23,484 nt of DNA from positions 1 to 23,484 of IMG/VR virus record IMGVR_UViG_3300017769_003165; one strand, given 5' to 3'. This DNA is from a virus. Under the pieces are notes generated by a model. That model made no database searches and had not been told where the DNA came from. It was given only the letters and a program-made list of their open reading frames with translations. Of this stretch, positions 4,954 through 23,484 are shown one piece after another (within the stretch, counting starts at the first letter, position 1; each line of letters opens with the position of its first letter). The position numbers and the translations under genes are program-made.

Positions 4954-4955
4954 CG

Positions 4956-5834: not shown

Positions 5835-5854
5835 AAACCTATAATTACATTAAA

Positions 5855-6838
5855 ATGAAAAAGATTGCGTTCATCTCAGGAATGACAGGACAAGATGGTC
5901 CTTACCTAGCAAAGTACCTATTAGAGCAAGACTACAAGGTGTATGGTTTGGTAAAGAGATACAGCAATCCAAATTTCTCAAATCTCGATTATTTAGGCAT
6001 AGAAAATGACGTTGATTTAATTACAGGTGACATCACGGATGACGCAAACATGAATCATCTAATTAGGTCAATCCGACCACATGAATTTTACAATCTTGCC
6101 GCCCAAAGTTTCGTAGGCTCGAGTTGGGATCTAAACAAGCAAACAACAGAAGTAAATGCAATGGGTGTGTTGAATGTGCTAAACGCAATCGTTAACCAAA
6201 ATCCACAGACAAGATTTTATCAGGCAAGTACCAGCGAACTTTATGGCAACGCAAATGATGAAGGAGTGCAAAATGAAAAAACTCCTTTTCATCCACGTTC
6301 TCCATATGGGATTTCAAAACTTTGTGCCTATTGGATGACTGTAAACTTCAGAGAAAGTTATAGCGTACACGCATCAAATGGTATATTGTTTAATCATGAA
6401 TCTCCTATCAGAGGTAAAGAATTTGTAACAAGAAAAGTGTCAGACGGTGTGGCGAGAATTAAATTGGGTCTTGCAAATAAAATCACGCTAGGAAATTTAG
6501 AGGCAAGAAGAGATTGGGGATTCGCCGGAGACTTTGTTAAAGCAATGCACATGATGGTGCAACAGAAAGAACCAGGTGACTATGTAATTTGCACAGCAGT
6601 TCAACACAGCATACGAGAATTATTGACTACTGCTTTCAGAACTGCAGAAATAGAGGATTGGGAAAAATATGTAGAATCAGATCCTCGTTATAAACGTCCA
6701 GCAGAAGTATTTGCACTTCACGGCTCTTACGCCAAAGCAAAAGAAAAATTAGGATGGGAACCTAAAACCGAATTCAAAGACATGATTTCTTTTATGGTTA
6801 AGGAAGATATAAGGCGTTTGTCTCATGATTTACGTTAG
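5855..6838 (+). CDS. gmd: GDP-mannose 4,6-dehydratase
   Basis: The 327-aa enzyme converts GDP-D-mannose to GDP-4-keto-6-deoxy-D-mannose, the branch point to GDP-fucose, GDP-rhamnose and GDP-perosamine. The cofactor motif GMTGQDG is at residues 9-15. The catalytic set Thr126-Ser-Glu128 (STSELYG), Tyr151 and Lys155 (YGISK) is intact. The GMD-specific substrate segments NHESPIRGKEFVTRK (180-194) and GNLEARRDWGFAGDFVKAM are present, which separates it from general epimerases. It is slightly shorter than most bacterial Gmd (about 345-370 aa). The ATG at 5855 places the Rossmann strand at the N-terminus; a TTG at 5810 is possible but overlaps the previous gene. No GDP-fucose synthase, Rmd or perosamine aminotransferase is obvious nearby, so the keto-sugar may be reduced by the SDR at 722-1726 or by a host enzyme. 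Confidence 0.93.
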   Translation: MKKIAFISGMTGQDGPYLAKYLLEQDYKVYGLVKRYSNPNFSNLDYLGIENDVDLITGDITDDANMNHLIRSIRPHEFYNLAAQSFVGSSWDLNKQTTEVNAMGVLNVLNAIVNQNPQTRFYQASTSELYGNANDEGVQNEKTPFHPRSPYGISKLCAYWMTVNFRESYSVHASNGILFNHESPIRGKEFVTRKVSDGVARIKLGLANKITLGNLEARRDWGFAGDFVKAMHMMVQQKEPGDYVICTAVQHSIRELLTTAFRTAEIEDWEKYVESDPRYKRPAEVFALHGSYAKAKEKLGWEPKTEFKDMISFMVKEDIRRLSHDLR

Positions 6839-7640: not shown

Positions 7641-8610
7641 AATTTTTCGAAGAACAGTCAAAGACAGGCGTAGGGGAGCAAGTTGGGACCTACTGCAATA
7701 CATGGCCGAGGGCGTAAGAGCATGTGGAGATGAGCCTGTGATTGTAAACGAAAATATGACAGGTCCATGGCAAAAAGATGAGATGGAACCAACAGCGCCA
7801 ATCGGATGCATGTTTGGTTATGGTGGTACAAATCAAAGACATCACACAAAAGGTCGAAGGTTAGATCTCGTTGAACGTGCAAAGAAAAAAGGAATATACA
7901 TTATAACATTTGACGGGGGACTTTTATCTAGTTTTGGTAATGTGCATGGGCCAGGACATCATTGGAGGGTATCTTTGTATTCTCCCATGAACAACGGAAA
8001 CTTTTTAAGTGACGATTCACCTGCCGATAGATGGGAAGCGGCGAAGACCAGGTGGAACGTTAAGAGTGATGCATGGAGAAGAAGTAATCAAGACGATCCT
8101 ATTATGTTTGTGTTGCAACCTAAAGACAACTGGAGCATGAACGAACTTGATCCTATAGAATGGTTTCATAGTGTATATGAAAAATTAAGACCTATCACAG
8201 ATAGAAAATTTATTGTACGGCCTCATCCTAATCATGTTGTCAATATAGAAGAACGGATAAGCGAATTTCCCGAAGATGTAGAAGTACACATTGGTCAAAA
8301 ATATTTTCAAGGAGATGAGAAAAAGTACTACAGATTTCATTTCCAAGAAGCAATAACTAATTTACATGCTGTTGTTACTCACAATTCTACTGCCGGCGTC
8401 GACTCTTGCGTTCGTGGAATCCCTACCTTTAATACCTCAGATCTTGCAATTAGTTGGCCAGTAGCAAACAAAGATCTAAACAATATCGAAACTCCACAAC
8501 GTCCTGATAGGACTCAGTGGCTACATGATCTAGGTTACAAACTGTGGAGTGAAAAAGAAATAAGAGACGGCACAGAATTCAAAAGATACAAAACAAAGTT
8601 AGGACTATAA
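7630..8610 (+). CDS. GT-B-like glycosyltransferase/capsule-synthesis-like protein, paralogue 3
   Basis: The 326-aa protein is the longest of the four paralogues. Conserved landmarks are MFVLQPKD (first strand of the second domain), TDRKFIVRPHPNH with RPHP at 197-200, VVTHNSTAGVDSCVRGIPTF from residue 248, and a C-terminal GYKLWSEKEIRDGTEF. Its N-terminal half differs from paralogues 2 and 4 and includes a glycine/histidine-rich stretch ending GPGHHW. The ATG at 7630 overlaps the previous gene by 11 nt and has a strong GGAGG Shine-Dalgarno (7618-7622) at 7 nt spacing. Its stop overlaps the start of the asparagine synthetase gene by one base (TAATG), so translation is coupled. A sugar-transfer role is inferred. 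Confidence 0.65.
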   Translation: MKVEIFRRTVKDRRRGASWDLLQYMAEGVRACGDEPVIVNENMTGPWQKDEMEPTAPIGCMFGYGGTNQRHHTKGRRLDLVERAKKKGIYIITFDGGLLSSFGNVHGPGHHWRVSLYSPMNNGNFLSDDSPADRWEAAKTRWNVKSDAWRRSNQDDPIMFVLQPKDNWSMNELDPIEWFHSVYEKLRPITDRKFIVRPHPNHVVNIEERISEFPEDVEVHIGQKYFQGDEKKYYRFHFQEAITNLHAVVTHNSTAGVDSCVRGIPTFNTSDLAISWPVANKDLNNIETPQRPDRTQWLHDLGYKLWSEKEIRDGTEFKRYKTKLGL

Positions 8611-10370
8611 TGTGTGGCATATACGGTATAACCGAACACGATCCAGAATTTATACAACAGTTTATTAAGACATGCGAACACCGAGGACCTGACGGCAACA
8701 AGGTTTGGTGGGATCCGGAGCATAAACTGACACTAGGTCATAACCTGTTAAGTATCATGGCCAACCCACAACTATCTATACAACCATGGAAGACACCCAA
8801 GGGCAACACACTAGTATACAACGGTGAGATATTCAACTACTACGAACTAAAACAGAAATACAATGGAAAAGGTTTTGTAGGTATTACTGGATGTGATACA
8901 GAATTGTTGGCGTGGGGACTAGACGAATTTGGATTGAATTTTATTGATGAGATAGATTCTATGCACGGCTTTGCATATTACCGCAAAGACGAACAACAAC
9001 TTTGGCTATCTAGAGATCATGCTGGCATCAAGCCATTGTACTATGCTGAAATAAAAGAGGGATTGGTGTTTGGCTCCGAAATAAAGGGCATGTTGGACAA
9101 GGTACCGGGAAGCAGAAAAATGGATAACCTAGCAGTAAGTTTCATGGCAAGAACAGGAATTAATGCCCTGCGTAATACTTTTTTTACTGGTATCAAAAAG
9201 TTATTGGCCGGAGAGACAATAGTATATGACATAGCAAAAAAACAGATGATTAAAACACACAGGGTGCATATTAAACCAACAAGTGACAAAAATTTTAATA
9301 TCAAAGAGTTTAGAAATATGGCACATAAAACAGTTGAGATGTGCTCTATTGGAAGAAGAAAGATTGGTGTGTTCTTAAGTGGTGGGTTGGATTCTAGTGT
9401 TGTTGCATATGAACTAAAGCAAATAAAGGGAGAAGCAAACACATTTACAAATAGGATGAATCCAAATGTTCAAGCAGATGAGGACTACAACAGTGACGCC
9501 AATTGTGCCAATATATTGGCCGCACAAAATAATTTTAATCATAAAGAAGTTGTAATAACACCCGAGTCATTCATAGACCAGTGGGACGACAGCATATATT
9601 ACATGGAGCAACCTGTTTACAATCCTAGCATGTCTATGTATTGTTACACCAACAAGTTCCTAGCAGACAATAATATAATCGTTACACTTGCTGGAGACAT
9701 GGGAGATGAAATCCTAGCAGGCTATCCAAAGTATTGGAAGATGAAAAATCCGGAGTGGTTGCAGAAGCAAATAGGGAAAACAAAAATAGAAAGTTGGGAC
9801 GATGTCTTAAGACTTTGGCTTAATAGAATAAAACGTCCATTAAAACTGACAGACAATCCTGTCAGCGACGATATATTACTTAAAGAATTTAAAAAATGTT
9901 ATGAGGGCGAATTATGGAATCCGAATGATCCTATAGGCTCCCACATGGCCTTAGACTGTGTTGCTCAAGTACCCGAAGAGATGTTCAGCAGGAACGACAA
10001 ATATGGAATGGCCTACAGTATGGAAGGACGTTTTCCATTGGCAACAAAAACTTTTATGAGATACTGCATGAGCATACACACAGATAAAAAATTAGGACCA
10101 GATAAAAATGATACAAAGATTCTTATAAAAAAAGCCTATGCAGGAACACTACCCAGAGAGATTATTAACAAACAAAAAACAGGATGGACTGTTCCGGTAG
10201 GACACTGGCTTACAACAAGTACCAGTAGCAAACTAAACAGTTTCTATAAGGAACGCACAGGCACAGCATCTAAACTGAATGTTACCAAAGCAAGCCAGAA
10301 AGCAGGCAAGGCTCTGATACCTGCATGGATTGTTAGCGACTGGATTAAAAAATACAACATGACAAGGTAA
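8610..10370 (+). CDS. asnB: Glutamine-dependent asparagine synthetase-like enzyme (AsnB type)
   Basis: The 586-aa protein has both AsnB domains. The N-terminal class II glutaminase begins MCGIYGI, with Cys2 as the nucleophile after Met removal, and includes HRGPDG (24-29), NGEIFNYYEL and GCDTELLAWG. The C-terminal synthetase has the ATP PP-loop SGGLDSS at 257-263. The family makes asparagine from aspartate, ATP and glutamine; paralogues in O-antigen clusters amidate sugar carboxyls or peptides. One departure is that the usual RLSI motif, whose Arg (Arg49 in E. coli AsnB) binds glutamine, reads LLSI here (Leu46). Because it sits among glycosyltransferases, sugar amidation is as plausible as asparagine synthesis. 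The start is the ATG in TAATG with AGGA at 8601-8604. Confidence 0.85.
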   Translation: MCGIYGITEHDPEFIQQFIKTCEHRGPDGNKVWWDPEHKLTLGHNLLSIMANPQLSIQPWKTPKGNTLVYNGEIFNYYELKQKYNGKGFVGITGCDTELLAWGLDEFGLNFIDEIDSMHGFAYYRKDEQQLWLSRDHAGIKPLYYAEIKEGLVFGSEIKGMLDKVPGSRKMDNLAVSFMARTGINALRNTFFTGIKKLLAGETIVYDIAKKQMIKTHRVHIKPTSDKNFNIKEFRNMAHKTVEMCSIGRRKIGVFLSGGLDSSVVAYELKQIKGEANTFTNRMNPNVQADEDYNSDANCANILAAQNNFNHKEVVITPESFIDQWDDSIYYMEQPVYNPSMSMYCYTNKFLADNNIIVTLAGDMGDEILAGYPKYWKMKNPEWLQKQIGKTKIESWDDVLRLWLNRIKRPLKLTDNPVSDDILLKEFKKCYEGELWNPNDPIGSHMALDCVAQVPEEMFSRNDKYGMAYSMEGRFPLATKTFMRYCMSIHTDKKLGPDKNDTKILIKKAYAGTLPREIINKQKTGWTVPVGHWLTTSTSSKLNSFYKERTGTASKLNVTKASQKAGKALIPAWIVSDWIKKYNMTR

Positions 10371-10384
10371 TGTAAATATTTAGA

Positions 10385-11245
10385 ATGAAAATTAAAGTTA
10401 TCACATCATACAAACCTGGCACATGGAACCAGTTTGCCAAGAGGGCAGTACAGAGTGTGCTTGAGCACTGGCCAGAAGATACCAGCGTGACCGTGTACCA
10501 CGAAACACAGACACAAGACTTTTTCGAACATCCTCGATTAGACTGGGTCGACATACACGAAGCACAACCGGAGTTAGTTAAATTTAAAAACAGGTACAAT
10601 AAAGATCCTGTCGCAAACGGGGAGATAGACGAAATACCAAACGGGGTGAGGAGGCCGGAACCTATGCCAGCAAAAGGATCATTCCAATGGAATGCTGTAA
10701 GATTTGCAAACAAAGTTTTTTGTGTTACACATGCCTTGAAAAATTCTGTAGGATACGATTACGTTGTGTGGTTAGATGCAGACACTTATTCTTTTAGACC
10801 AATGCCATCAAGTTTCTTAGAAAAATTACTACCAGGAGATAGTCTACTCACATACCTTGGACGTGGAGATTTAGACCCAGAATGCGGATTTGTTGGTTAT
10901 AATTTAAAACACACTGACATTAAAAAATTAGTCGACGAGTGGGAAGACCTTTACATCAATAATAAAATATTCAAACTTACATCAGGTTGGACCGACTGTT
11001 CCTCTTTAATATACCTATCACGACAATACCAAAAACAGAACGGCGTAAAAGTATACGACATCGGACATGCAAGTGGTGTAAAAGGACATCACGTGTTTAT
11101 TAATAGTCTGTTGGGACTGTACATGGATCATTTTAAAGGTAAAAGGAAAAAGTCTGGCACAAGTTGGAAGAAAGATTTTTGGCCGCAGGCACATGACGAA
11201 ACTAAAAAAATTGTAGAACTTGATTACTGGAAAAGTATCAAATGA
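10385..11245 (+). CDS. Putative GT-A glycosyltransferase with DxD motif, paralogue B
   Basis: The 286-aa protein is the paralogue of 4956-5834. It shares MKIKVITSYKPGTWNQFAKR at the N-terminus, KDPVANG, NGVRR, the DxD motif in VVWLDADTYSF (Asp131 and Asp133), ECGFVGYN, and the C-terminal GHHVFINS...GLYMDHFKGKRKKSGTS. Similarity runs over the whole length, which points to gene duplication followed by divergence. It starts 14 nt after the asparagine synthetase stop and ends in an ATGA overlap with the next gene. The likely role is transfer of a sugar in the same glycan. Two copies suggest two different donors or acceptors, but this cannot be read from sequence. Confidence 0.7.
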   Translation: MKIKVITSYKPGTWNQFAKRAVQSVLEHWPEDTSVTVYHETQTQDFFEHPRLDWVDIHEAQPELVKFKNRYNKDPVANGEIDEIPNGVRRPEPMPAKGSFQWNAVRFANKVFCVTHALKNSVGYDYVVWLDADTYSFRPMPSSFLEKLLPGDSLLTYLGRGDLDPECGFVGYNLKHTDIKKLVDEWEDLYINNKIFKLTSGWTDCSSLIYLSRQYQKQNGVKVYDIGHASGVKGHHVFINSLLGLYMDHFKGKRKKSGTSWKKDFWPQAHDETKKIVELDYWKSIK

Positions 11246-12111: not shown

Positions 12112-12833
12112 TAGAACCAATAGAATTTAAACCATACGTTGGAGAAACTGTAAACACAGTCCTCAGGATTAAGAACAGGGTAAAAACTCAAGAAACAGAA
12201 TGGTATCCGGATAAGGTTAAGGCAGTGCCCAGAGGAAATGCATACTGTATAGGGAATGGGCCATCTCGTAAAGATTTTGATCTTTACAGATTACAAGACA
12301 CTGGACAAACTTACGGTTGTAATGCATTGTACAGAGATTTTGTACCTGATTACATTTTCAGCGTAGATTCGAAAATTACCATGAAGATGTGTGAAGACAA
12401 AGTGTATGAAAAGTGCTTTCATTATGCTCCTTCGCTAGAAGTTAATAGGCCGCATGGCAAAGACAAACTGCATTTGATTCCAAATAACCCACACTGGATA
12501 TCAGGAAACGCCGCCTTCTGGACAGCAGGAGTGCATGGGCACAAGAACATATATCTCATAGGTTATGACTTCAGGGAATACGGAAAAGGTAAACTGAACA
12601 ACATCTATCAAGATACACCCAACTACGGTGAACGTAATGATGACAAGATATTTGATGGATGGCTGAAGCAGTTACGTGACATGATTAAGATGAGGCCATA
12701 CGTCAATTACACCATTGTACATAACAATCCACCAGACTATCTTAACAATCTACAGACAGGAACCGATCTTGGTAACAGTAAAGTTATCAGTTACAATGAA
12801 TTTGAAAAGGTATTAACACCTTGCAAGGATTAG
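12108..12833 (+). CDS. DUF115/MptE-like or phage glycan-associated protein, TTG start
   Basis: The 241-aa protein begins at TTG, overlapping the previous TGA as TTGA, directly after a perfect Shine-Dalgarno. Visible motifs are AYCIGNGPSRKDFDL (45-59), a Rossmann-like strand with a Gly-Asn-Gly-Pro-Ser turn, YGCNALY (69-75), PDYIFSVDSK (80-89), and later NIYLIGYDF. The IGNGPS...N.LY...PDY...D layout is seen in DUF115/MptE-like domains and some sialyltransferase-like proteins encoded near glycan genes. I do not recognise a firm family. It closes the rightward glycan operon. Its 3' end overlaps the convergent SprT-like gene by 21 nt, and no terminator hairpin is evident there. Confidence 0.7.
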   Translation: MIEPIEFKPYVGETVNTVLRIKNRVKTQETEWYPDKVKAVPRGNAYCIGNGPSRKDFDLYRLQDTGQTYGCNALYRDFVPDYIFSVDSKITMKMCEDKVYEKCFHYAPSLEVNRPHGKDKLHLIPNNPHWISGNAAFWTAGVHGHKNIYLIGYDFREYGKGKLNNIYQDTPNYGERNDDKIFDGWLKQLRDMIKMRPYVNYTIVHNNPPDYLNNLQTGTDLGNSKVISYNEFEKVLTPCKD

Positions 12834-13289
12834 GCCTGCCATCCTAAATTTATTTCTCCATGCAAAGAAGTTTGCATTATGATTTGCGTAAGGATCTTTT
12901 ATCCATGTCATCTGATACAGATGCACCATTTCGTGTGCAAGTGTTTCTATGAAGTCTTTCCATTTTGGAAATTTACAATGCAGTTCAATATAGTAATCAA
13001 CATCAACATGATATGGTATTACACGCTGATCAAACTTTCCTTTGGGCGTCTTTCTATTGTCCCAATTGGCAACACATCTGCCCCAGTCCTTGTGCAGTTT
13101 CCTCACATGCAATGGTACCATTGGTAATCTACTATTGAACAGACATCGATTGATGTATCTGAACCATTGGTATGCCTGTTGTTCTGTTGGCTTGAATCCT
13201 TTTGTGTTCTTGTATCTGGTCGCAGTGTTTTCCAACTTGACTTTAAGTTGCTTCCTTACATTTACCGCTTTGTTCTTTACCTTTTTCAT
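12813..13289 (-). CDS. SprT-like zinc metalloprotease
   Basis: The 158-aa protein resembles SprT/Spartan-type zinc metallopeptidases. HEMVH at residues 119-123 supplies two zinc-binding histidines and the catalytic glutamate. The third ligand is probably His137 in NHNANFFAW, matching the family's H-x-x-x-F arrangement. The basic N-terminus (KKVKNKAVNVRKQLKVKLE) may contact nucleic acid. Eukaryotic Spartan cleaves DNA-protein crosslinks, while the role of bacterial and phage SprT proteins is poorly defined. The ATG at 13289 is chosen; a TTG at 13307 would extend it by 6 residues. It is transcribed against both neighbours, and the rightward promoter for the replication operon overlaps its start. 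A repair or anti-host role is possible but not shown. Confidence 0.8.
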   Translation of the reverse strand: MKKVKNKAVNVRKQLKVKLENTATRYKNTKGFKPTEQQAYQWFRYINRCLFNSRLPMVPLHVRKLHKDWGRCVANWDNRKTPKGKFDQRVIPYHVDVDYYIELHCKFPKWKDFIETLAHEMVHLYQMTWIKDPYANHNANFFAWRNKFRMAGLILARC

Positions 13290-13291
13290 GG

Positions 13292-13319
13292 TTGACAGTA
13301 TTACCAATTATGTTATAAT
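13292..13319 (+). promoter_or_regulatory. Near-consensus sigma70 promoter with extended -10
   Basis: A perfect TTGACA (13292-13297), a 16-bp spacer and a perfect TATAAT (13314-13319) preceded by TG at 13311-13312 (extended -10) form an almost ideal host-type early promoter. It would start transcription near 13326, about 18 nt before the ATG at 13344, and drive the HARP-like/uvsW/replication genes. Both hexamers match perfectly, which is rarely accidental in an intergenic gap of this size. Confidence 0.8.
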
Positions 13320-13343: not shown

Positions 13344-14702
13344 ATGGATAAAATGCACACAGATTTGCCAAAAACAATTAACGAAGCACTTAAAATACTA
13401 GCATATAATGATTATTTTTGGGCTGATCCGTCAATGATTGGAAATACAGGCGCAATTAAGCCACACCCTAAAGATCATGAAACAGTGAGATCACTAGCAG
13501 AGTCACAATACGCCTGGACAGAGAAACAGGCCAGACTAGCACTGGTTATATTAAAGAGATACCTTACAAAGTTCCAGGCACACGGCATGGATATCAAGAA
13601 GTTGTTGGACAATCCTCAATATGAGGACGACTTCAGGGTTATAAGTTTTGACAAAGTGATAGAAAAATACACGGACGATGATAACATTGATAGAATTGAG
13701 ATGAGATTCCCTTACCACAAGAAAGTTATACAACTAATACGTTGCATGAAAGACAAACGTGACCTACCTGGAATGTATGCCATGTATGACGGTGAGAAAA
13801 AGAGATGGACTTTTAAACATAGTGATGTAACCGCCTACTACCTTACATTGATTGCAGTGAGATATGATTTTAAATTCACAGATGACAGCCTGCTTAACGA
13901 TTACGAAGATATCAAAAAACAAGTGATTGGACATCGTCAACCTACAGCGAAATTAATCGCTGGAGAGGTTGTTTTGGATAATGCCTCCGAATCGCTACAG
14001 GAATACTGGAATCAAAATATTAAAAACAAAACAGCACTTGATCAAGTAGACTCATTAAAAAATTTTTATATATCAACCAAAGGCATAAACGTTGAGGCCG
14101 AAACTACAATAGGACACAAGATTGCCCACAACAATTACCACAAATTATGGATAGACTCGAAGGGATTTTCAAAGAATGATGTGGTCAAAGGATTAGTAGA
14201 ACTAGATTGCTTTCCTTTAATAATGCCAGTCAGCGGTGACATACACATGCAGGACGATGTTAAAGACTTTTGGGAATGGTTGAATGTTTTCAAGGCACAT
14301 GGCATAGACATACTGAATGATTGCAGTTGGGGATTCGATGTGAAAGAACCAGTCTACAAAAAAGATTTAGATAAGTTTACAAATGAAAGACACTGGTTAG
14401 TAAACAATCAACAGTCGCATGAGTTCTTCGAAAATCTTTACGAACTACATCAAATGAGTAAACAGTTCAAACTGATCAGTGACAATACCAAAATAATATT
14501 CGTTAGGAACAGAATACCAAGGGCATTGATCAAAAGTAAAGTAAAACCAAAAGCGTCTTTGGTCGCACTGGGTGGCGGTTATTATGCGACAGGCACAGAC
14601 AATCTAAAAAGAATGCTTGAAAATCTTCCAAAAAAGTTGTATTATAGTGATCACCAACCGAGTAGTTGGGATTGGCATGATCACATAATAGTAAAACTTT
14701 AG
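13344..14702 (+). CDS. Unknown 452-aa protein with a HARP-like segment, upstream of uvsW
   Basis: I do not recognise the full-length family. Residues about 115-180 look like a HARP domain: FPYHKKVIQLIRCMK (122-136) followed by YAMYDGEKKRWTF with Trp155. This fits the pattern of a basic/aromatic strand, a helix with Ile and Lys, then a Y-D-x-x-x-R-x-W-x-F hairpin. In SMARCAL1 HARP domains target the adjacent SNF2 motor to branched DNA and support annealing and fork remodelling. No Walker A, DEAD/DEXH or other helicase motif is present in this protein. It is the first gene after a strong promoter, and the UvsW-like motor starts 1 nt after its stop, so a two-subunit fork-remodelling complex is an attractive inference. 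The C-terminal half has no motif I can name. Confidence 0.75.
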   Translation: MDKMHTDLPKTINEALKILAYNDYFWADPSMIGNTGAIKPHPKDHETVRSLAESQYAWTEKQARLALVILKRYLTKFQAHGMDIKKLLDNPQYEDDFRVISFDKVIEKYTDDDNIDRIEMRFPYHKKVIQLIRCMKDKRDLPGMYAMYDGEKKRWTFKHSDVTAYYLTLIAVRYDFKFTDDSLLNDYEDIKKQVIGHRQPTAKLIAGEVVLDNASESLQEYWNQNIKNKTALDQVDSLKNFYISTKGINVEAETTIGHKIAHNNYHKLWIDSKGFSKNDVVKGLVELDCFPLIMPVSGDIHMQDDVKDFWEWLNVFKAHGIDILNDCSWGFDVKEPVYKKDLDKFTNERHWLVNNQQSHEFFENLYELHQMSKQFKLISDNTKIIFVRNRIPRALIKSKVKPKASLVALGGGYYATGTDNLKRMLENLPKKLYYSDHQPSSWDWHDHIIVKL

Positions 14703-14703
14703 A

Positions 14704-16173
14704 ATGAGCAGTTGTAAATTAGTAATAAAAGATGAAGTGAACGTAAAGTTCGAGAACCTTAGCCTCGAATGGCGAAAAAGGTTATCTAATAAATTCAAAT
14801 ATGAAATACCATACGCAAGACATTTGCCTGCTGTGAAACTGGGCAGATGGGACGGTAAGGTCAGTTTCTTTGGTCTCGGAGGAACAACATACCTGAACCT
14901 AGTTGATCAAATACTTCCTATACTAGACGAAGGCGGAGTGTATATAGATGTTGAGGATAAAAGAGAACAACACAATTTTGAATTCAAACAAGTAGACAAA
15001 AATTATCTATCGCACATCACTTGGCCAGAAAATCATCCGGCCGCGGGACAACCAATAGTATTAAGAGACTATCAAGTGGAAACAATAAACAAATTTATTG
15101 AACATCCACAAAGCATACAAGAGATCGCCACTGGTGCAGGTAAGACTATTATTACAGCGGCACTGTGCCAACTGGTCGAACCATATGGCAGGACACTTAC
15201 AATCGTTCCAAACAAGAGTCTAGTAACACAAACCGAAGAGGACTTTCTTGCTTGTAATTTAGATGTTGGTGTGTACTACGGCGACAGGAAAGAACTTGGA
15301 CGTTTTAACACTATAGCAACATGGCAATCATTAAACGTGCTTGAAAAGAAAAGTAAAGACGAACACACAACAGATTTTCTGGAAGCAATACAAGGCATTA
15401 ACACAGTAATAATAGATGAGGTGCACATGGCTAAAGCAGATGTGCTGAAGAGATTGTTGACCGGACCATTTGCACACTGTGGCATACGTTGGGGGCTGAC
15501 CGGCACTGTGCCTAAAGCGGACTACGAGTTCATGGGTTTGAAATGCAGTATTGGTGACGTGTCAAACAGGATACAGGCAAGTGAACTACAAGACAAGGGT
15601 GTGTTAGCAAACTGCCACGTGAATGTATTACAGACCCAGGATCATCCACAGTTCAAGACATACGGAGAGGAACTAAAATGGCTAACCACAGACAAGACCA
15701 GGATGAAGTGGGTGGCAAACACAATCAAAGACATATCGAGTTCAGGAAATACACTGATACTAGTTGATAGGATCTCCGCAGGGGAGATATTAGAAGAGCA
15801 GATCGATGATGCGGTGTTCGTGTCGGGATCAACTAAAAACACAGACAGAAAGGAACAATATGATGAAATATCTACTGCAACAAATAAAGTTATCATTGCC
15901 ACATATGGAGTTGCCGCTGTTGGTATTAATATTCCTAGGATTTTTAATCTTGTTCTCATAGAGCCAGGAAAGTCGTTTGTCAGGGTAATACAATCAATAG
16001 GGCGTGGCATCAGGAAAGCCGCGGACAAAGACAGTGTCCAGATATGGGATATTACCAGCAGTTGCAAGTTTGCAAAAAGACACCTCGGACAAAGGAAAAA
16101 GTTTTACAAAGAGGCAAATTACCCGTATAATATAGAAAAGATAAATTATGAAAATCCTTACACTGGAAAATAA
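14704..16173 (+). CDS. uvsW: UvsW-like superfamily 2 DNA helicase
   Basis: The 489-aa protein is the T4 UvsW type of SF2 ATPase, which regresses stalled forks, migrates branches, unwinds R-loops and helps switch replication from origin- to recombination-initiated mode. It has the small N-terminal domain of UvsW (PAVKLGRWDGKVSFF around 40-54). The motor follows: Q-motif LRDYQ, Walker A ATGAGKT (142-148), DEVH (238-241), LTGT (around 265) and motif VI QSIGRGIR (430-437). The length matches T4 UvsW (about 500 aa). It starts 1 nt after the upstream stop and overlaps the next gene by 26 nt, so it is co-translated with both. Confidence 0.95.
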   Translation: MSSCKLVIKDEVNVKFENLSLEWRKRLSNKFKYEIPYARHLPAVKLGRWDGKVSFFGLGGTTYLNLVDQILPILDEGGVYIDVEDKREQHNFEFKQVDKNYLSHITWPENHPAAGQPIVLRDYQVETINKFIEHPQSIQEIATGAGKTIITAALCQLVEPYGRTLTIVPNKSLVTQTEEDFLACNLDVGVYYGDRKELGRFNTIATWQSLNVLEKKSKDEHTTDFLEAIQGINTVIIDEVHMAKADVLKRLLTGPFAHCGIRWGLTGTVPKADYEFMGLKCSIGDVSNRIQASELQDKGVLANCHVNVLQTQDHPQFKTYGEELKWLTTDKTRMKWVANTIKDISSSGNTLILVDRISAGEILEEQIDDAVFVSGSTKNTDRKEQYDEISTATNKVIIATYGVAAVGINIPRIFNLVLIEPGKSFVRVIQSIGRGIRKAADKDSVQIWDITSSCKFAKRHLGQRKKFYKEANYPYNIEKINYENPYTGK

Positions 16174-16651
16174 AACATACTCACTTGAGAAGATACCGGA
16201 GTGGGTGGATGACAAACTTAGATTTGCTGTGCTTGACAATTCAGATCCTGCCAATCCAGACTTCTTCTACATACCTTTAATTTTTCTAGAGAGCTTCAAT
16301 GCTCCGGCGGCAGTGTTGGAGATAGGATCTCACAAGATAAAAATGCCACTGGATTGGAAGATGCTAATAGGTGAAGCCGGACAATCTGAGATGCACGTGT
16401 TACCAATTACAAGCCTCAACGACAGAGGTTTTGATGCTTTCACATTCAATCCGTTATCGAGTCCAAAACCGGACTTCTACCCAATTGATGTTGTAGACAT
16501 CTACACCGAAGTGAAATGGTATTTTCCTAAGATCAAGTCAGGACAGATGTTGGCAGTGCCATTACAAAATGGGCCGAAACCGATGTGTGCCTACTTTGTC
16601 AAGGACATTTCGAGACAATGTGAACAGGTGGACTATGGCTCGGTTTGGTAG
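16148..16651 (+). CDS. Conserved-type phage protein of unknown function
   Basis: The 167-aa protein overlaps the end of uvsW by 26 nt and the next gene by 17 nt, which supports it as a real member of the operon. I cannot name the family. Visible features are a mixed alpha/beta composition, a Pro- and Asp-rich centre (SSPKPDFYPIDVVDIYTE) and aromatic segments, with no signal peptide, membrane segment, zinc site or ATPase motif. By position it could be an accessory replication or transcription factor, but that is only guilt by association. Confidence 0.75.
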   Translation: MKILTLENKTYSLEKIPEWVDDKLRFAVLDNSDPANPDFFYIPLIFLESFNAPAAVLEIGSHKIKMPLDWKMLIGEAGQSEMHVLPITSLNDRGFDAFTFNPLSSPKPDFYPIDVVDIYTEVKWYFPKIKSGQMLAVPLQNGPKPMCAYFVKDISRQCEQVDYGSVW

Positions 16652-16868
16652 AAGGTCAATCACAATAGAAGCACCTGTCATGATCACAAGTGATAAAATT
16701 GCAGTATGGATGGATGAAAGATGGATGCACGACTTTTTTGACTTCATACATTTACACAAAGTCAAACTTTCAGGTTTACAACACAAACAAAGGAAATTAA
16801 AATTAACATTTGTAACGCCAAAAGAATGTACAATGTTTGGACTAAAATATGCCGGCAGAAAAAAATAG
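16635..16868 (+). CDS. Small conserved-type protein, 77 aa, unknown function
   Basis: The protein begins MARFGRRSITIEAP and is rich in basic and aromatic residues (GLQHKQRKLKLTFVT, GLKYAGRKK at the C-terminus), as expected of a small nucleic-acid- or protein-binding factor. The frame is open further upstream to 16569, but that part lies inside the previous gene. The ATG at 16635 has AGGTGG just 3 nt upstream and is preferred, giving a 17-nt overlap with the previous gene. It overlaps the gp62-like gene by 20 nt. No family is recognised. Confidence 0.6.
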   Translation: MARFGRRSITIEAPVMITSDKIAVWMDERWMHDFFDFIHLHKVKLSGLQHKQRKLKLTFVTPKECTMFGLKYAGRKK

Positions 16869-17301
16869 AAAATTTTTTGATTTAAGGAATGGGCTCAAAG
16901 CAGTAGACTTCCGTAACAAGGACTATTTTGACAGGATAGATGACAAAGAGAAGTCTTTGTATTCTCCATACATGCTGATGAGATACGTATCAAGCACATC
17001 ATCAAAGGATAAGTTCTTTGTTGAACACTACGTAGAAATGGTCAATGAATGTGTCAACAAACACTGTTTCACACTAGGCAAACACAAGAAACTTTTATGG
17101 ATACTAACTGCCATGTGTGGTGCACTGCAACAACAATTCCATCCATGGATTAAACCAATGAAACGTGTACCAAACAAGAGTCTTAAAAAATTACAACAGA
17201 TATATCCGACTTGGAAAGAAACGGACTTGGAGACATTAGATAAAATTATAACAGACAGAGAACTAGAAGAGCTGATAGAAGCACATGGCGTCGACGAATA
17301 A
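16849..17301 (+). CDS. Putative sliding-clamp-loader small subunit (T4 gp62-like)
   Basis: The 150-aa protein resembles the small, non-ATPase subunit of the T4 clamp loader, which with gp44 loads the gp45 clamp onto primer-template DNA. The pattern fits the family: LYSPYMLMRYVSS (38-50), matching the xxPFMxNRxLS-type region; a helix HYVEMVNECVNKHCF; then a helical centre and WIKPMKRVPNKSLKKLQQIYP with the basic W-x-K motif. The length fits the short marine-phage forms. The identification is by eye and the sequence is divergent. If it is correct, the gene lies away from gp44/gp45, which are not in this window. It overlaps the preceding gene by 20 nt and the zinc-finger gene by 17 nt. Confidence 0.55.
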   Translation: MPAEKNRKFFDLRNGLKAVDFRNKDYFDRIDDKEKSLYSPYMLMRYVSSTSSKDKFFVEHYVEMVNECVNKHCFTLGKHKKLLWILTAMCGALQQQFHPWIKPMKRVPNKSLKKLQQIYPTWKETDLETLDKIITDRELEELIEAHGVDE

Positions 17302-17968
17302 ATGTACATACTGTGGCAAAGAATTTGCAAAGGCAAGGACACTGCAAGTGCACCTGTGCGAACCTAAGCGTAGATACCTGCAACGTGATGAGAAGTGGGT
17401 TGTGAATGCATTCATGGTGTTCCAAAGGTTTTATCAGATACACCAACACAATTCCAAACCTAAAACTTATGACGACTTTGTAAAAAGTGCATACTACAAT
17501 GCATTTGTGAAGTTTGGTAGATTCATTATGCACATCAACCCTTTGTATCCAGACAAGTACATAGACTATGTTTTACAATCAAAAGTGAAATTGGATCATT
17601 GGTCAAGGGATGATCTTTATGAGATGTATCTGATTGAAGCATTAAAGAAGGAGCCTGTTGAGGCCGCACTACAAAGAAGCATAGCAACAATGATGGACTG
17701 GGCGACAGAACAAAATGCACAATGGTCAGACTACTTCAGACTTGTTAACACCAACAGAGCGGTGGCACACATACAGCAGGGCAAGATAAGTCCATGGTTG
17801 TTGTTAGGTTGCAACGCAGGAAAAAAAATGTTAAAATCACTTAACGACGAACAATTACAGATGATAGAAAAATTTATACACACAAGTTTCTGGCCAAGCA
17901 AGTTGAAAAGTTATCCAGCGGATCTCATGTTGGTGCAGGACACAGCAAGGGAGGCCAAAATTGTCTAA
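17285..17968 (+). CDS. C2HC zinc-finger phage protein, unknown function
   Basis: The 227-aa protein starts with one classical finger: Cys7-x2-Cys10, then a 12-residue loop with Phe14 and Leu20, His23 and Cys25 (CTYCGKEF...LQVHLC), followed by a basic KRR. The rest is mostly helical with no motif I can name (VFQRFYQIHQHNSKPKTYDDFV; GKISPWLLLGCNAGKK). A DNA- or RNA-binding regulator is likely from the finger, but no function is known to me. It overlaps the gp62-like gene by 17 nt. The strong Shine-Dalgarno for the next gene lies within its 3' end. Confidence 0.75.
   Translation: MASTNKCTYCGKEFAKARTLQVHLCEPKRRYLQRDEKWVVNAFMVFQRFYQIHQHNSKPKTYDDFVKSAYYNAFVKFGRFIMHINPLYPDKYIDYVLQSKVKLDHWSRDDLYEMYLIEALKKEPVEAALQRSIATMMDWATEQNAQWSDYFRLVNTNRAVAHIQQGKISPWLLLGCNAGKKMLKSLNDEQLQMIEKFIHTSFWPSKLKSYPADLMLVQDTAREAKIV
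17947..17954 (+). promoter_or_regulatory. Strong ribosome binding site for a TTG-started gene
   Basis: AAGGGAGG lies 6 nt upstream of the TTG at 17961 and fixes that start. This is the second case in the window of a perfect or near-perfect Shine-Dalgarno paired with a TTG codon overlapping the previous gene's end. Confidence 0.75.
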
Positions 17969-18194
17969 GATTGATTTACAAATTGCAGATAATTTAGAGT
18001 TTGAAGACGGTGATATAGCAATCACAATCAAACAAGACGGATCAATAGGAAAAGTAATATTACCTAAGATGGATTTGAAAACACAGAACAGTGCAGGATA
18101 CAGAGCGATGCTAGATATTGTAGATTTACTACAACCTGGATCCAAAGAAGAATTCATTAAACATAATAAAAAAGAGAAAGGGAGTGTACACTGA
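17961..18194 (+). CDS. Small acidic/hydrophilic protein, 77 aa, TTG start
   Basis: The protein reads MSKIDLQIADNLEFEDGDIA at the start and has a compact beta-rich look (EDGDIAITIKQDG, GKVILPKMDLKT), ending in a charged tail KKEKG. It starts with TTG (read as Met) after AAGGGAGG, overlapping the previous gene by 8 nt. Its TGA stop shares one base with the ATG of the next small gene (TGATG). No family name can be given. It is likely a small accessory factor of the replication block. Confidence 0.7.
   Translation: MSKIDLQIADNLEFEDGDIAITIKQDGSIGKVILPKMDLKTQNSAGYRAMLDIVDLLQPGSKEEFIKHNKKEKGSVH
18177..18184 (+). promoter_or_regulatory. Ribosome binding site supporting a 37-aa gene
   Basis: AAAGGGAG sits 9 nt upstream of the ATG at 18194. 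It supports translation of the short membrane-protein gene that follows. Confidence 0.65.
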
Positions 18195-18307
18195 TGTTTT
18201 ACATTCGAAAATTTTTAACAAAGAATAACTTACTTGGCATAGTGTATATAGGCGTATTCATATACCTACTAGCACTTCTTTTAAATAATTTACAAGGAAC
18301 AATATAA
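18194..18307 (+). CDS. 37-aa single-pass membrane protein
   Basis: This short gene starts at the ATG in TGATG and ends at the TAA in TAATG, so it is coupled to genes on both sides. It has a good Shine-Dalgarno. The protein has a basic N-terminus MFYIRKFLTKNN, then about 20 hydrophobic residues beginning LLGIVYIGVFIYLLALLL, and a short polar tail. The basic N-terminus favours an N-in, C-out single membrane helix. Its place between soluble replication-type proteins is odd. Possible roles include membrane anchoring of the replisome, superinfection exclusion or lysis timing; the sequence does not decide among them. Confidence 0.65.
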   Translation: MFYIRKFLTKNNLLGIVYIGVFIYLLALLLNNLQGTI

Positions 18308-18897
18308 TGCCTGACGTAGATATTGATTTCTTCGACAGAGACAACACTTTGAAATTATTCAGGCACACGCCTGCTTCAATTATCAAGGAAGGCAAAACTG
18401 AAAAACACAAGACAGGAGTGTACTTCCATGCGGTGCCAGAACATCCAGTTACAGGACATGCCACTCTAGACTACAAAAAAGCAGAGGAAAGAGGCTACTT
18501 CAAGATAGACTGTTTGAACGTGAACATATACAAAGATGTCAAATCAGAACAGGAACTGGTTGAACTGATGATACAGGAACCAGACTGGGACATGCTGAAG
18601 GATCCAAAGACAGTGGAAAACCTTTTCCACCTAAATGGCCATTTCAACATAGTGTCCAAACTCAAACCGGAAACCATAGAACAACTTGCGGCTGTATTGG
18701 CTATAATACGTCCTGCGAAGAGACACCTGATGCACAAGGACTGGGTAGACATAATGAAAGAGGTTTGGGTCAAACCCACAGATGGGTCATACTTCTTCAA
18801 GAAATCACATGCTGTTGCGTATGCACAAGCAATAGTTGTTCAGATGAATCTTATCTCAAAAGATAAATATAATTTTGATGCAACATCAAAAAACTAA
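18307..18897 (+). CDS. Miniature DnaE-like (family C polymerase fragment-like) protein
   Basis: The 196-aa protein strikingly resembles short pieces of the bacterial DNA polymerase III alpha subunit, joined in the same order. PDVDIDF (2-8) matches the palm motif PDFDVDF and holds two of the catalytic aspartates (Asp5, Asp7). HKTGVYFHAVPEHPVTG (34-50) resembles the H-x-GG-V-V...PVT region. GYFKIDCL (63-70) matches the third-aspartate motif (Asp68). LKDPKTVENLFHLNGHFNIVSKLKPETIEQLAAVLAIIRP resembles the DPKTFELL...GM..L.KLKP...D..A..A..RP fingers region, and KSHAVAYA (166-173) is the fingers motif. It lacks the PHP, beta-binding and OB parts of a roughly 1100-aa DnaE. The role is unknown. The start is an ATG with AAGGA 8 nt upstream. 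Confidence 0.75.
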   Translation: MPDVDIDFFDRDNTLKLFRHTPASIIKEGKTEKHKTGVYFHAVPEHPVTGHATLDYKKAEERGYFKIDCLNVNIYKDVKSEQELVELMIQEPDWDMLKDPKTVENLFHLNGHFNIVSKLKPETIEQLAAVLAIIRPAKRHLMHKDWVDIMKEVWVKPTDGSYFFKKSHAVAYAQAIVVQMNLISKDKYNFDATSKN

Positions 18898-19033
18898 AAA
18901 AAGAATCAAAAAAAAATCCAAAACAAAATCCAAGTCTTCGCTTCGTTCAGAGAGTAACAGTTATCAGCCGGATAGTCCTTTAACAGGTCACTATCTTACA
19001 ACAGGTGCTATACTTCCTGAAAAAAAAGACTAG
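18878..19033 (+). CDS. Putative 51-aa lysine-rich protein
   Basis: An open frame from an ATG inside the end of the DnaE-like gene (20-nt overlap) to a TAG at 19031-19033 encodes MQHQKTKKRIKKKSKTKSKS followed by a less basic tail ending GHYLTTGAILPEKKD. The first 20 residues are more than half Lys/Arg, which suggests nucleic-acid binding or packaging. The tail is not low-complexity, which favours a real gene. No good Shine-Dalgarno is visible, so coupling to the upstream gene would be needed. It fills an otherwise empty gap and ends 4 nt inside the convergent gene at 19030-19404. Confidence 0.5.
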   Translation: MQHQKTKKRIKKKSKTKSKSSLRSESNSYQPDSPLTGHYLTTGAILPEKKD

Positions 19034-19404
19034 GTAGGTCTTCGTACTAATTGGATGGTACGTCTCTTCACCCGTTTCTTTGAAATATCTGAGAGTTTGA
19101 CAGTGGGGCCGTGTACTATCTCAACATCCTTTGAGTTAAGAGTTATAAGAGTTGTACGAAAATATTTGAATTCGCCCTTTAGGAATATGTTAATTGGTAA
19201 TTTACGATTTGACTCATGCCACCAAGTTTCTCCACATTTCAGAAATCTCATCTTATCCTGTGGCATCATAAGCCTGCTGTAGTCATAGAAACTGATAACG
19301 TTTATGTCCTCATTCTGCACAATGCCCACGTACTCCAAATCACCCTTTCTAATCAGGCTCAAAAATGGGAACTTGTCCCTTAGTGTGTTAAAAATCTCGT
19401 TCAT
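19030..19404 (-). CDS. Conserved-type T4-like phage protein, unknown function
   Basis: The 124-aa protein has a pattern I associate with a small protein common in marine T4-like phages: LRDKFPFLSLI near the start, YVGIVQNED (25-33), CGETWWHESNRKLPINIFL (57-75), NSKDVEIVHGP (90-100), and a very basic end SKKRVKRRTIQLVRR. The basic tail suggests nucleic-acid contact, but the function is unknown. It is transcribed leftward between rightward genes, so it may have its own promoter in 19405-19436, a gap it shares with the late promoter of the divergent virion gene. No Shine-Dalgarno is obvious on the minus strand. Confidence 0.75.
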   Translation of the reverse strand: MNEIFNTLRDKFPFLSLIRKGDLEYVGIVQNEDINVISFYDYSRLMMPQDKMRFLKCGETWWHESNRKLPINIFLKGEFKYFRTTLITLNSKDVEIVHGPTVKLSDISKKRVKRRTIQLVRRPT

Positions 19405-20250: not shown

Positions 20251-21264
20251 ATGAATCTTATACAGAATACAATTCTGACTAGTCTTCCTGCGAACAGAAA
20301 GAAAACACCAAGTGGTTGGATAAGTTTCAATGCACCTTGTTGTGTACACAATGGTGAAACAGCAGACAAGAAAAAACGTGGTGGCCTAATGACAAGTGCA
20401 GATGGCACTGTGAGTTATCACTGCTTCAACTGTGGCTTCAAAGCAAGTTATGTGATAGGACGTAAACTGGCCTACAAGATGAGGCAGTTCATGGGATATA
20501 TTGGCATACCCGATGACACCATACGTAAACTAGCAATAGAGGCCATGCGTGAAGAAGAGAGTGATGTGAAATATGAAAAGAAAAAATTTGTTACATTTGG
20601 CAAAAAGGATTTGCCAAATAATACTAAATCATTAGACACGTGGTTAGAAAAATACACTACAGGAACATTATCAGACGTAGAACAGAAAAGTATAGACAAC
20701 TTGTTGAACTATCTATCTAGCAGAGGGGTTGGACCAGACTGGTATGACTTCATGTATTCGCCTAGTAAGATATGGGACATATATCAAAGACTATTAATAC
20801 CATTCTATTGGCGTGGAGAGATTGTAGGATTCACTGGACGAGTTTTTGAAGACTCACAGGCAGTGAAATATTACACAGACGTGTGGCCTGGTTATGTTTT
20901 CAATATGGATGCACAGGACTGGACAAGGAAGTTTGTGATAGTGACTGAAGGGCCATTTGATGCGATATCCGTTTCTGGTGTTAGCATACTTGGTAGTGAG
21001 ATAAATGATACACAAAGAGAACTGATAGACAGTCTCGGTAGAAAGGTAATTGTTGTACCAGACAGAGATGCTCCAGGAGAAAAACTGATTAACCAAGCAA
21101 TGGAATATGGATGGAGCGTGGCTTTTCCAGAATGGGACAAAACGGTTGGCGATGTGGCGGATGCTGTGTTAAAATATGGTAGACTGTTTACTATACAATC
21201 GATACTGAAAACTACAGAGTCAAGTAAACTAAAAATAGATTTAAAGAGAAAGATGTATGGCTGA
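20251..21264 (+). CDS. DNA primase (T4 gp61-like)
   Basis: The 337-aa protein makes RNA primers with the gp41 helicase. The zinc-binding region has Cys31, His33, Cys58 and Cys61 (CVH...CFNC). The TOPRIM domain shows VTEGPFDA (Glu233) and the metal-binding PDRD (Asp271, Asp273). A connecting helical region carries SSRGVGPDW. The length and order match T4 gp61 (342 aa). The start follows a short A/T-rich gap after the virion gene, and the 3' end overlaps the helicase gene by 8 nt, which fits the known primase-helicase partnership. Confidence 0.92.
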   Translation: MNLIQNTILTSLPANRKKTPSGWISFNAPCCVHNGETADKKKRGGLMTSADGTVSYHCFNCGFKASYVIGRKLAYKMRQFMGYIGIPDDTIRKLAIEAMREEESDVKYEKKKFVTFGKKDLPNNTKSLDTWLEKYTTGTLSDVEQKSIDNLLNYLSSRGVGPDWYDFMYSPSKIWDIYQRLLIPFYWRGEIVGFTGRVFEDSQAVKYYTDVWPGYVFNMDAQDWTRKFVIVTEGPFDAISVSGVSILGSEINDTQRELIDSLGRKVIVVPDRDAPGEKLINQAMEYGWSVAFPEWDKTVGDVADAVLKYGRLFTIQSILKTTESSKLKIDLKRKMYG

Positions 21265-22696
21265 ATACACATTTGATGTACAAAAACTTTATATAGAGAT
21301 GCTTCTGGCAGATGCAGAATCATTTGCTAGGGCACAGAACATATTCAAACCAGAGTCGTTTGACAGGAAACTTCAGCCGATTGCGAAGTTCGTCAAGGAC
21401 TACATGGACGAATACAAAGTTATGCCGGAGGTTGATATAGTAAATGCACAACATGATATAAAATTAAAATCAGCCAAAGATTTAGATCCAAGCCATTTCA
21501 ATTGGCTACTAGACGAGTTTGAAACGTTTTCAAGACACAAGGCACTAGAACATGCAATACTACAATCAGCAGATCTGCTCGAGAAGGGAGACTATGCTCC
21601 AGTAGAGGACATGGTGAAGGAAGCAGTGAACGTAGGGCTGACACGTGATCTTGGTACAGACTACTTTGAGGATCCAAAAGGAAGACTTGAGGCACTCAAG
21701 GCAAACAACGGACAGGTCAGCACTGGCTGGAATAACTTAGACAAGAAACTATTCGGTGGATTTAATCGAGGAGAACTAAACATCTTTGCAGGTGGATCAG
21801 GCGCAGGTAAGAGTTTGTTCTTGCAGAATCTTGCAGTTAACTGGGCACAGGCAGGCCTGAACGTTTGTTACATATCTTTTGAATTAAGTGAACAACTAAC
21901 AGCAATGAGGTTGGACGCAATGATGACTAACATTCCAACTAAGAAAGTGTTTCCTGAAATAGATAATGTTGAAATGAAAGTCAAGATGCTGAAGAAAAAG
22001 TCAGGTACTTTGCAGATCAAATACTTGCCAAGTGGTAGCAACGTGTTGGACGTAAGAACATATCTAAAAGAGCTCGAGCTCAAGAACAAGAAGAAGATAG
22101 ATTGCATATTGATCGACTACTTGGATCTGATGATGCCTAAGAGCAAAAGGATATCGCCAGCGGACTTGTTTATAAAAGACAAATACGTGTCTGAGGAGTT
22201 GAGAAACTTGGTAGTAGAGAAACAGTGTGTGTTGGCGACAGCATCACAGTTGAACAGGGCATCTGTTGAAGAAATAGAGTTTGATCACTCTCACATCTCA
22301 GGTGGACTATCCAAGATACAGACTGCTGACAACGTGATAGGTATATTCACATCTAGGGCAATGAAAGAACGTGGCAGGTATCAGATACAGTTCATGAAGA
22401 CAAGATCAAGTTCTGGTGTTGGGCAAAAAGTAGATTTAGAGTTTGACGTAGACAGCCTACGTATCAGAGACTTGGCAGACGATCCTGAGTACAAACAATT
22501 TGATAAACAGAGAAGTACGATATACGATAACCTTAAGAAAACATCTAAAGTTACAGGAGGCACCACGCCAACAGACGCAAGGCCGGAGGTTCCTGATCCA
22601 ACAAAAGGTGACACTATAGGAAAAGTAAAAGCCACAGTAGAGGGCGGCAAACTGAGACAACTTCTAAACGAACTGCACTCAGATGAAGAACAGTAA
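21257..22696 (+). CDS. Replicative DNA helicase (T4 gp41-like, DnaB family)
   Basis: The 479-aa hexameric 5'-3' helicase drives the fork and recruits primase. The N-terminal helical domain covers about residues 1-110, a linker follows, and the RecA-like domain carries Walker A GGSGAGKS at 179-186, the downstream FELSE, Walker B-type ILIDYLDLM, and the ASQLNR segment typical of the DnaB family. A charged, Pro-rich C-terminal tail (about 420-479) likely mediates protein contacts. The length matches T4 gp41 (475 aa). It overlaps primase by 8 nt and endonuclease III by 14 nt. Confidence 0.95.
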   Translation: MAEYTFDVQKLYIEMLLADAESFARAQNIFKPESFDRKLQPIAKFVKDYMDEYKVMPEVDIVNAQHDIKLKSAKDLDPSHFNWLLDEFETFSRHKALEHAILQSADLLEKGDYAPVEDMVKEAVNVGLTRDLGTDYFEDPKGRLEALKANNGQVSTGWNNLDKKLFGGFNRGELNIFAGGSGAGKSLFLQNLAVNWAQAGLNVCYISFELSEQLTAMRLDAMMTNIPTKKVFPEIDNVEMKVKMLKKKSGTLQIKYLPSGSNVLDVRTYLKELELKNKKKIDCILIDYLDLMMPKSKRISPADLFIKDKYVSEELRNLVVEKQCVLATASQLNRASVEEIEFDHSHISGGLSKIQTADNVIGIFTSRAMKERGRYQIQFMKTRSSSGVGQKVDLEFDVDSLRIRDLADDPEYKQFDKQRSTIYDNLKKTSKVTGGTTPTDARPEVPDPTKGDTIGKVKATVEGGKLRQLLNELHSDEEQ

Positions 22697-23363
22697 TGAC
22701 ATCAACTACATATACGAGAAATTAAGTTCTCTATATCCAAATTATTCAAACAAGAAACCTAAAGCAAAAATATATGCCAAGGCATATACCAGTCTCATCG
22801 GTGTCATGCTGTCTGCTCAATCACAAGACAAGAGGACAGCAGTTGCTTGTAGACAACTTTTTGCACTAGCAGATACGCCTGAGGACATGCTTAAACTATC
22901 ACAGGAAGAGATCATAGAAGCAATCAAACCTGCAGGCTTGTTCAATGCAAAATCTAAAAATATACTGGCCACAAGTAAAATGCTTTTAGAGAAGTTTGAT
23001 GGACGTGTGCCAAGCACACAGAAAGAATTATTGACACTGCCGGGAGTTGGACGTAAGAGTTCCGACATAGTCATGAGATTCGTTTTTGGCGAACCACACA
23101 TAGCAGTGGACACCCACGTGTTTAGAATGCTGTGGAGACTGGGTTGGGCAGACAGCCTTGACGAAGGTAAAGCATCCATCAACGTAAATGATACTACATC
23201 AAGCAAATACAAATACGGTGCTCACATGTGGTTGATAACACATGCAAAACTTGTTTGCAAATCAAGATCACCATTGTGTGAACAGTGTGTGATCAGTGCG
23301 GCATGCGACAAAAGAGATATCACAATTCCTAAAAATAAACTTCGCCAAAATCTTACTGCCTAA
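22683..23363 (+). CDS. nth: Endonuclease III-like DNA glycosylase/AP lyase
   Basis: The 226-aa protein is an apparently intact Nth. The helix-hairpin-helix is LPGVGRKS (119-126) with catalytic Lys125. The catalytic aspartate is Asp143 in AVDTHVFR. The iron-sulfur cluster loop is C192-x6-C199-x2-C202-x5-C208, exactly the family spacing. The N-terminal MLSAQSQD (42-49) matches the LLSAQ motif. Nth removes oxidised pyrimidines and cleaves the abasic strand. It starts 14 nt before the helicase stop, so it is in the same transcription unit. Base-excision repair coupled to phage replication, or processing of modified host DNA, is a plausible role. Confidence 0.95.
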   Translation: MKNSNDINYIYEKLSSLYPNYSNKKPKAKIYAKAYTSLIGVMLSAQSQDKRTAVACRQLFALADTPEDMLKLSQEEIIEAIKPAGLFNAKSKNILATSKMLLEKFDGRVPSTQKELLTLPGVGRKSSDIVMRFVFGEPHIAVDTHVFRMLWRLGWADSLDEGKASINVNDTTSSKYKYGAHMWLITHAKLVCKSRSPLCEQCVISAACDKRDITIPKNKLRQNLTA

Positions 23364-23430: not shown

Positions 23431-23484
23431 ATGAAAAATAAAGAACTAAACGACATAACAAGGCTATACGATAGATTCATTAGG
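23431..23484 (+). CDS. Start of a rightward gene, cut by the window edge
   Basis: An open frame starts at the ATG at 23431 and runs to the right end of the window. The 18 visible residues read MKNKELNDITRLYDRFIR, a charged amphipathic helix. A short purine run, AGG (23426-23428), sits just upstream. Too little is visible to name a family. It follows endonuclease III after a 67-bp gap that holds the possible late box. Confidence 0.5.
   Translation, partial: MKNKELNDITRLYDRFIR

Follow-up and report, generated by a model that had tools for sequence, protein, structure and literature searches.

The window, a 23,484-nucleotide stretch of viral DNA, encodes a 196-residue protein (mini-C; positions 18307–18897, plus strand) in which motifs of the bacterial DNA polymerase III α subunit (Pol III α) follow one another in the correct order. 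Given that E. coli DnaE, the full-length counterpart, has 1,160 residues, what could so small a relative do in a virus? The initial annotation of this sequence had left several answers open, among them a complete miniature enzyme, a degenerate polymerase, a decoy and a regulator. Here we address whether mini-C belongs to family C at all, what it has lost, and where the rest of the enzyme might be encoded.

A family C palm and fingers core

The mini-C open reading frame starts with ATG, with an AAGGA about 9 bases 5' of it, and all of the motifs that had been read from the sequence are in place: PDVDIDF at residues 2–8, H34xxG37V, KIDCL at 66–70, IRPAK at 134–138 and KKSHAVAYA at 165–173. The PDxDxDF block begins at residue 2 (400 in E. 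coli DnaE), KHxxG at 33 (510), K-x-D at 66 (553), the residue preceding RP at 134 (638) and the KSH block at 165 (757). D3, D5 and D68 correspond to D401, D403 and D555 of DnaE, the three catalytic aspartates that are invariant across family C (PMC3919608), while K66 corresponds to K553, H34 to H511, R135 to R639 and H168 to the steric gate H760, the role of which has been described (PMC8485763). D405 of the DnaE palm is shared as well.

As a single sequence, mini-C matched the correct segments of PF17657 (Pol III fingers; E=0.0025) and TIGR00594 (E=0.018), neither match reaching the curated cut-off, and a search of PDB chains returned no relevant match, so profiles are required to detect the relationship. 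The full-length DnaE profile phrog_405 was matched at E=7e-6 and the protein's own family, phrog_11778, at E=4e-66. A profile built from 69 homologues retrieved only Pol III α chains from the PDB sequences (best E=0.026), and its profile–profile comparison with a DnaE alignment gave E=1.3e-5 and a probability of 81%, a significant match of the kind that the initial annotation had called for. An AlphaFold2 model computed from 50 sequences (pLDDT 89.1, pTM 0.73) was compared with the PDB using Foldseek; the best 14 matches were all Pol III α, with probabilities of up to 1.00 and modest E-values (1.7e-3 to 0.8), and beyond these no entry exceeded a probability of 0.1, which we regard as noise. 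The model and its fold matches correspond to the Pol β-type palm and the fingers of solved DnaE structures. The predicted fold thus agreed with family C, and we infer from the fold match that the active-site aspartates cluster as they do in the Pol III α palm. The profile, profile–profile, fold and conservation evidence agree, and the motifs are not due to chance; as judged by sequence and predicted structure, mini-C is a family C palm and fingers core.

Conservation and distribution

Seven residues (D3, D5, D7, H34, G37, K66 and D68) are 100% conserved among 162 distinct complete mini-C homologues, confirming that the three catalytic-type aspartates are real. The steric gate H168 is present in 161 of the 162, the remaining sequence having a gap at this position, and the steric-gate histidine together with the finger motif IRP..K is retained in more than 98% of them. 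In the region that had been described as H-x-x-GV...PVTG, the conserved elements are H34, G37 and P44, whereas the 'PVTG' itself varies. Comparison of the window's gene with those of near relatives indicated strong purifying selection (median dN/dS 0.048 over 74 comparisons). Full catalytic conservation and a dN/dS of about 0.05 argue for a functioning active site, as far as this can be read from sequences.

Relatives of mini-C were found in 90 phage-collection records, nearly all of them jumbo phages, including RaK2, 121Q, PA5oct, Atu_ph07, Phosso, XacN1 and SCTP-2, and, in IMG/VR, on hundreds of contigs, one scan yielding 448 relatives. Members of the window's marine clade share 35–55% identity with the proteins of the named phages. 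Among the matches listed from one scan of prokaryote genome contigs were a 3.7 kb contig in an archaeal metagenome-assembled genome (MAG), probably placed there by a binning error, together with a single weak match. A contig of a Zixibacteria MAG (L507; LJUY01000006.1) shows a weak match, of 30%, to the fingers segment. No match was found among the anti-phage defence families compared.

Domains and residues lost relative to DnaE

The interval between D405 and H511 spans 106 residues in E. coli DnaE and only 27 in mini-C, a shortening that removes the thumb, and that between R639 and H760 is reduced from 121 residues to 33, which removes half of the fingers, including the LRRAMGKK segment (E. 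coli 708–715) for which mini-C has no equivalent. Length and alignment likewise leave no room for the PHP, β-clamp-binding, OB and tau/C-terminal domains. In the absence of a thumb, binding of a primer-template would require other proteins. The GRGS nucleotide-binding segment, which lies N-terminal to PDxDxDF in DnaE, is also absent from mini-C.

The nucleotide-binding half is a separate gene in related phages

Searching with PF07733, we found that each of ten complete jumbo phages encodes another short protein. This protein, phrog_11127 (hereafter the N half), is about 175 residues long, covers only positions 13–98 of PF07733, carries the motif GxGRGS (a GxGRGSS helix) and terminates at '..EFLK', with the identical abrupt end in about 90 N halves from named phages and IMG/VR. 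The N-half profile aligns to residues 322–395 of E. coli DnaE (E=2.5e-6) and matches the DnaE alignment at E=6.6e-10, and its AlphaFold2 model (pLDDT 88.8) returns family C Pol III enzymes as its first matches. At the position of E. coli R390, N halves have a conserved Glu; this replacement, together with the absence of LRRAMGKK, means that dNTP binding must differ in the split enzyme.

The '..EFLK' end of the N half corresponds to E. coli L392/N393 and the MPDVDIDF start of mini-C to M399/P400. In terms of the alignment, the cut falls inside the palm and separates the nucleotide-binding helix from the metal-binding strand, about 6 residues being lost there; DnaE encodes its palm in one gene and these phages in two. 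Mini-C retains the metal-binding palm strands and reduced fingers, and as a separate gene for the Mg/template-binding C half it has the arrangement known from group 2.2 jumbo phages. On sequence grounds mini-C is one half of a predicted two-protein enzyme, for which GRGS is provided in trans by phrog_11127 in related phages, rather than the complete miniature enzyme that had been envisaged.

In complete phages the two halves co-occur. All 11 complete named phages examined (the ten and Slicko01) carry the N half, nine large environmental contigs carry both halves, and tblastn records counted by host genus are nearly balanced between C and N halves (Escherichia 34/34, Pseudomonas 11/11, Salmonella 8/8, Erwinia 8/8 and Klebsiella 11/10). 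We detected only an N half on one 359 kb contig (G037) and only a C half on one of 280 kb (G064), either of which may be incomplete. In most phages the genes lie tens to more than 200 kb apart, for example at 115 and 149 kb in RaK2 and at 321 and 98 kb in Phosso; Slicko01, a phage of 141 kb, has about 11 kb between them. Two lineages have the N half some 1 kb upstream of gp44, the clamp loader gene.

Relation to described polymerases

In 2021, Iyer et al. reported that group 2.2 jumbo phages encode, alongside a family B polymerase, a 'phage-specific minimal version' of Pol III α that is 'split up into separate proteins', and they put this phage form forward as a model for the ancestor (PMC7824862). 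The presence of a family C core beside family B, which had seemed unexpected in the initial annotation, was therefore already published. A truncated Pol III α had been noted earlier in phage CBB (PMC5259590) and a Pol III α subunit in Atu_ph07 (PMC6102473), and a 2022 survey identified PF07733 as the one group-specific gene present in around half the members of the largest cluster of marine jumbo phages (PMC9123017). We found no report in the open-access literature of an activity test of the split minimal Pol III α.

Mini-C is a new marine member of this already described enzyme, the split of which was predicted from genomes in 2021. It belongs to the same gene family (PHROGs 11778 and 11127), with the same division into an NTP-binding and an Mg/template-binding half and with family B in the named phages. 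The marine clade differs in its 35–55% identity, in the addition of a single-chain DnaE in some members, and in that the N half was not located on its contigs, which are no longer than 91 kb. New here are the exact cut point, the deletion of the thumb, the marine clade, the set of residues invariant across 162 proteins, the linkage of the N half to the clamp loader and the co-resident single-chain DnaE of 563 residues.

A conserved replication neighbourhood

The C half sits between uvsW and the primase-helicase genes. The block opens with a UvsW-type helicase (14704–16173, plus strand; phrog_16, E=1e-74) and continues on the same strand with three conserved neighbours whose order is maintained in marine relatives: phrog_11279 (16148–16651), phrog_11758 (16849–17301) and phrog_11058 (17285–17968). 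The last of these, also present in Atu_ph07, has an N-terminal C2H2-type zinc finger and is a possible accessory subunit. Directly 5' of mini-C lies a gene for a fast-evolving protein of 77 residues (17961–18194, plus), which is 28–64% identical among relatives whose mini-C remains 69–91% identical. Mini-C is followed by a convergent gene matching phrog_11637 (19030–19404, minus), one further gene, a DnaG-type primase resembling T4 gp61 (20251–21264, plus; phrog_47, E=4e-37) and a DnaB-type replicative helicase resembling T4 gp41 (21257–22696, plus; phrog_19, E=1e-72).

The block order of the marine window is shared by E. coli phage 121Q and, with extra intervening genes, by Sinorhizobium phage Phosso. 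RaK2 and the PA5oct-like PAC2 have the same order, and most named phages have a minus-strand gene at the phrog_11637 position. The neighbourhood differs in XacN1 and RAS14.

A second, single-chain DnaE in the marine clade

The window ends within a second dnaE gene, of which only the first 18 codons are present (MKNKELNDITRLYDRFIR; 23431–23484, plus strand). It begins 4.5 kb downstream of mini-C. Complete copies in relatives (L183 to L186; L183 1459–3144, L184 1366–3057, L185 1366–3051) encode a single-chain, PHP-less enzyme of 561–563 residues that matches PF07733 (E=3e-43) and PF17657 (E=5e-15) and has all palm residues, R390 included. Single-chain PHP-less phage DnaE of this type (563 residues; Streptomyces phage DnaE-like genes, LR756508.1) shares the family C palm and fingers with the split enzyme, but is one polypeptide and retains R390, an LRRAMGKK-like segment and a reduced thumb. 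In the relatives examined that have both, an endonuclease III (nth)-like gene without a PHROG match (22683–23363 in the window) lies directly 5' of it. Several close relatives lack both genes 3' of gp41, one of them retaining an nth-matching fragment, and relatives with 86–91% identical mini-C have no 563-residue DnaE downstream of it; the pair looks like a patchy two-gene module that has been gained or lost. A search of nine named jumbo phages for this DnaE identified none, the sole match (in SCTP-2) being the N half. We considered whether the 563-residue protein could itself be the missing N half and rejected this idea: it forms a complete enzyme in one chain, and many close relatives lack it 3' of mini-C.

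No N half was detected in the 23 kb window or on window-clade contigs of up to 91 kb; when 28 and subsequently 19 contigs from the mini-C group were searched, the 563-residue protein gave the only match. A family B polymerase, present in all ten named phages tested and on two environmental contigs (G045 and G064), was likewise not detected in the window or on contigs of its clade. Both genes are distant from mini-C in relatives, so their absence from these contigs is no proof that the viruses lack them. A marine cluster of N halves (L121, L133, L136, L166 and L416–L495; contigs G053 and G044) carries an intact family B polymerase (phrog_262, E=3.5e-192) as well as gp44. It may represent the missing half of the window's clade: several sampling sites are common to the two, which is suggestive only, and no collinear overlap with the clade was found for L416–L495, G053 and G044.

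A probable accessory two-chain polymerase

We consider it probable, on the strength of these sequence comparisons, that mini-C and the N half form an accessory heterodimeric family C polymerase whose palm is divided between two genes, and we infer that the two proteins associate and synthesise DNA. The N half would contribute the GxGRGSS nucleotide-binding helix and mini-C the Mg-binding part, so that their union would restore a palm in which the catalytic aspartates, K553, R362-G363-S364 and the steric gate H760 are all present. The resulting enzyme would lack the PHP domain, the thumb, half of the fingers and the domains that bind the clamp and tau. It would probably serve the primase-helicase and the clamp loader by extending primers, filling gaps or acting in repair, with the phage genome itself being copied by the family B enzyme. 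Bacillus subtilis offers a precedent by analogy for family C primer extension before a hand-off, since its DnaE briefly extends primers at the fork and then hands off to the main replicase, PolC (PMC5627055); the split enzyme might act in the manner of this DnaE, although each of the two B. subtilis enzymes is a family C polymerase of full length.

The same pair of halves could instead be a non-templated nucleotidyltransferase engaged in end-labelling, tailing, primer synthesis or nucleotide signalling. A palm that is complete with both halves, yet has lost the thumb, half of the fingers, LRRAMGKK and R390, would suit such a role in phages that already possess a family B polymerase. We nevertheless judge it unlikely: the near-universal retention of H168 and IRP..K points to deoxynucleotide selection, and the genes of the halves are grouped with primase, helicase and clamp loader. 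That mini-C is a structural or regulatory relic, either a decoy for the host clamp loader or tau or a non-catalytic replisome subunit, seems highly improbable. Its small size and missing Pol III domains are what such a relic might show, but the clamp- and tau-binding regions that a decoy needs are precisely the missing parts, and catalytic conservation with invariant metal ligands and low dN/dS led us to reject the decoy and degenerate readings and speaks equally against a mere regulator.

Specific to the window's clade is the prospect that the single-chain DnaE is replacing the split enzyme and leaving mini-C with a residual role. The presence 4.5 kb downstream of another DnaE, its active site complete, would fit this account, as would clade contigs from which no N half was recovered. 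We regard it as highly improbable, given that the gene is patchy even among close relatives, that mini-C is still strongly constrained, that the contigs are fragmentary, and that several of their sampling sites also yielded a candidate marine cluster of N halves.

If the halves of the proposed heterodimer reconstitute a polymerase, they would define the minimum for family C DNA synthesis and show that the palm can be divided so that the nucleotide-binding helix and the metal-binding strand sit on different chains. Such a pair would also provide a simple system for studying the origin of bacterial Pol III and the way in which a phage combines a eukaryote-like with a bacterial-like polymerase. 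We can suggest only tentatively that the thumbless two-chain enzyme is the smallest known Pol III-type polymerase and that some marine forks use two family C polymerases, and probably family B, at once. The exact cut point and the invariant residues make a reconstitution test straightforward.

Other genes in the window

Directly 5' of uvsW is a gene for a 452-residue protein (13344–14702) with no PHROG match and only weak Pfam matches (HARP, E=0.011), preceded on the minus strand by a candidate SprT-like metallopeptidase (12813–13307) in which HEMVH forms an HExxH-type motif; genes of this type have been described from group 2.2 jumbo phages. A run of sugar- or glycan-type genes adjoins the replication block and includes epimerase-like genes at 722–1726 and 5810–6838 and an asparagine synthase-like gene at 8610–10370. 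Within this run lie two paralogues (4950–5834 and 10385–11245), both with KIKVITSYKPG near the start.
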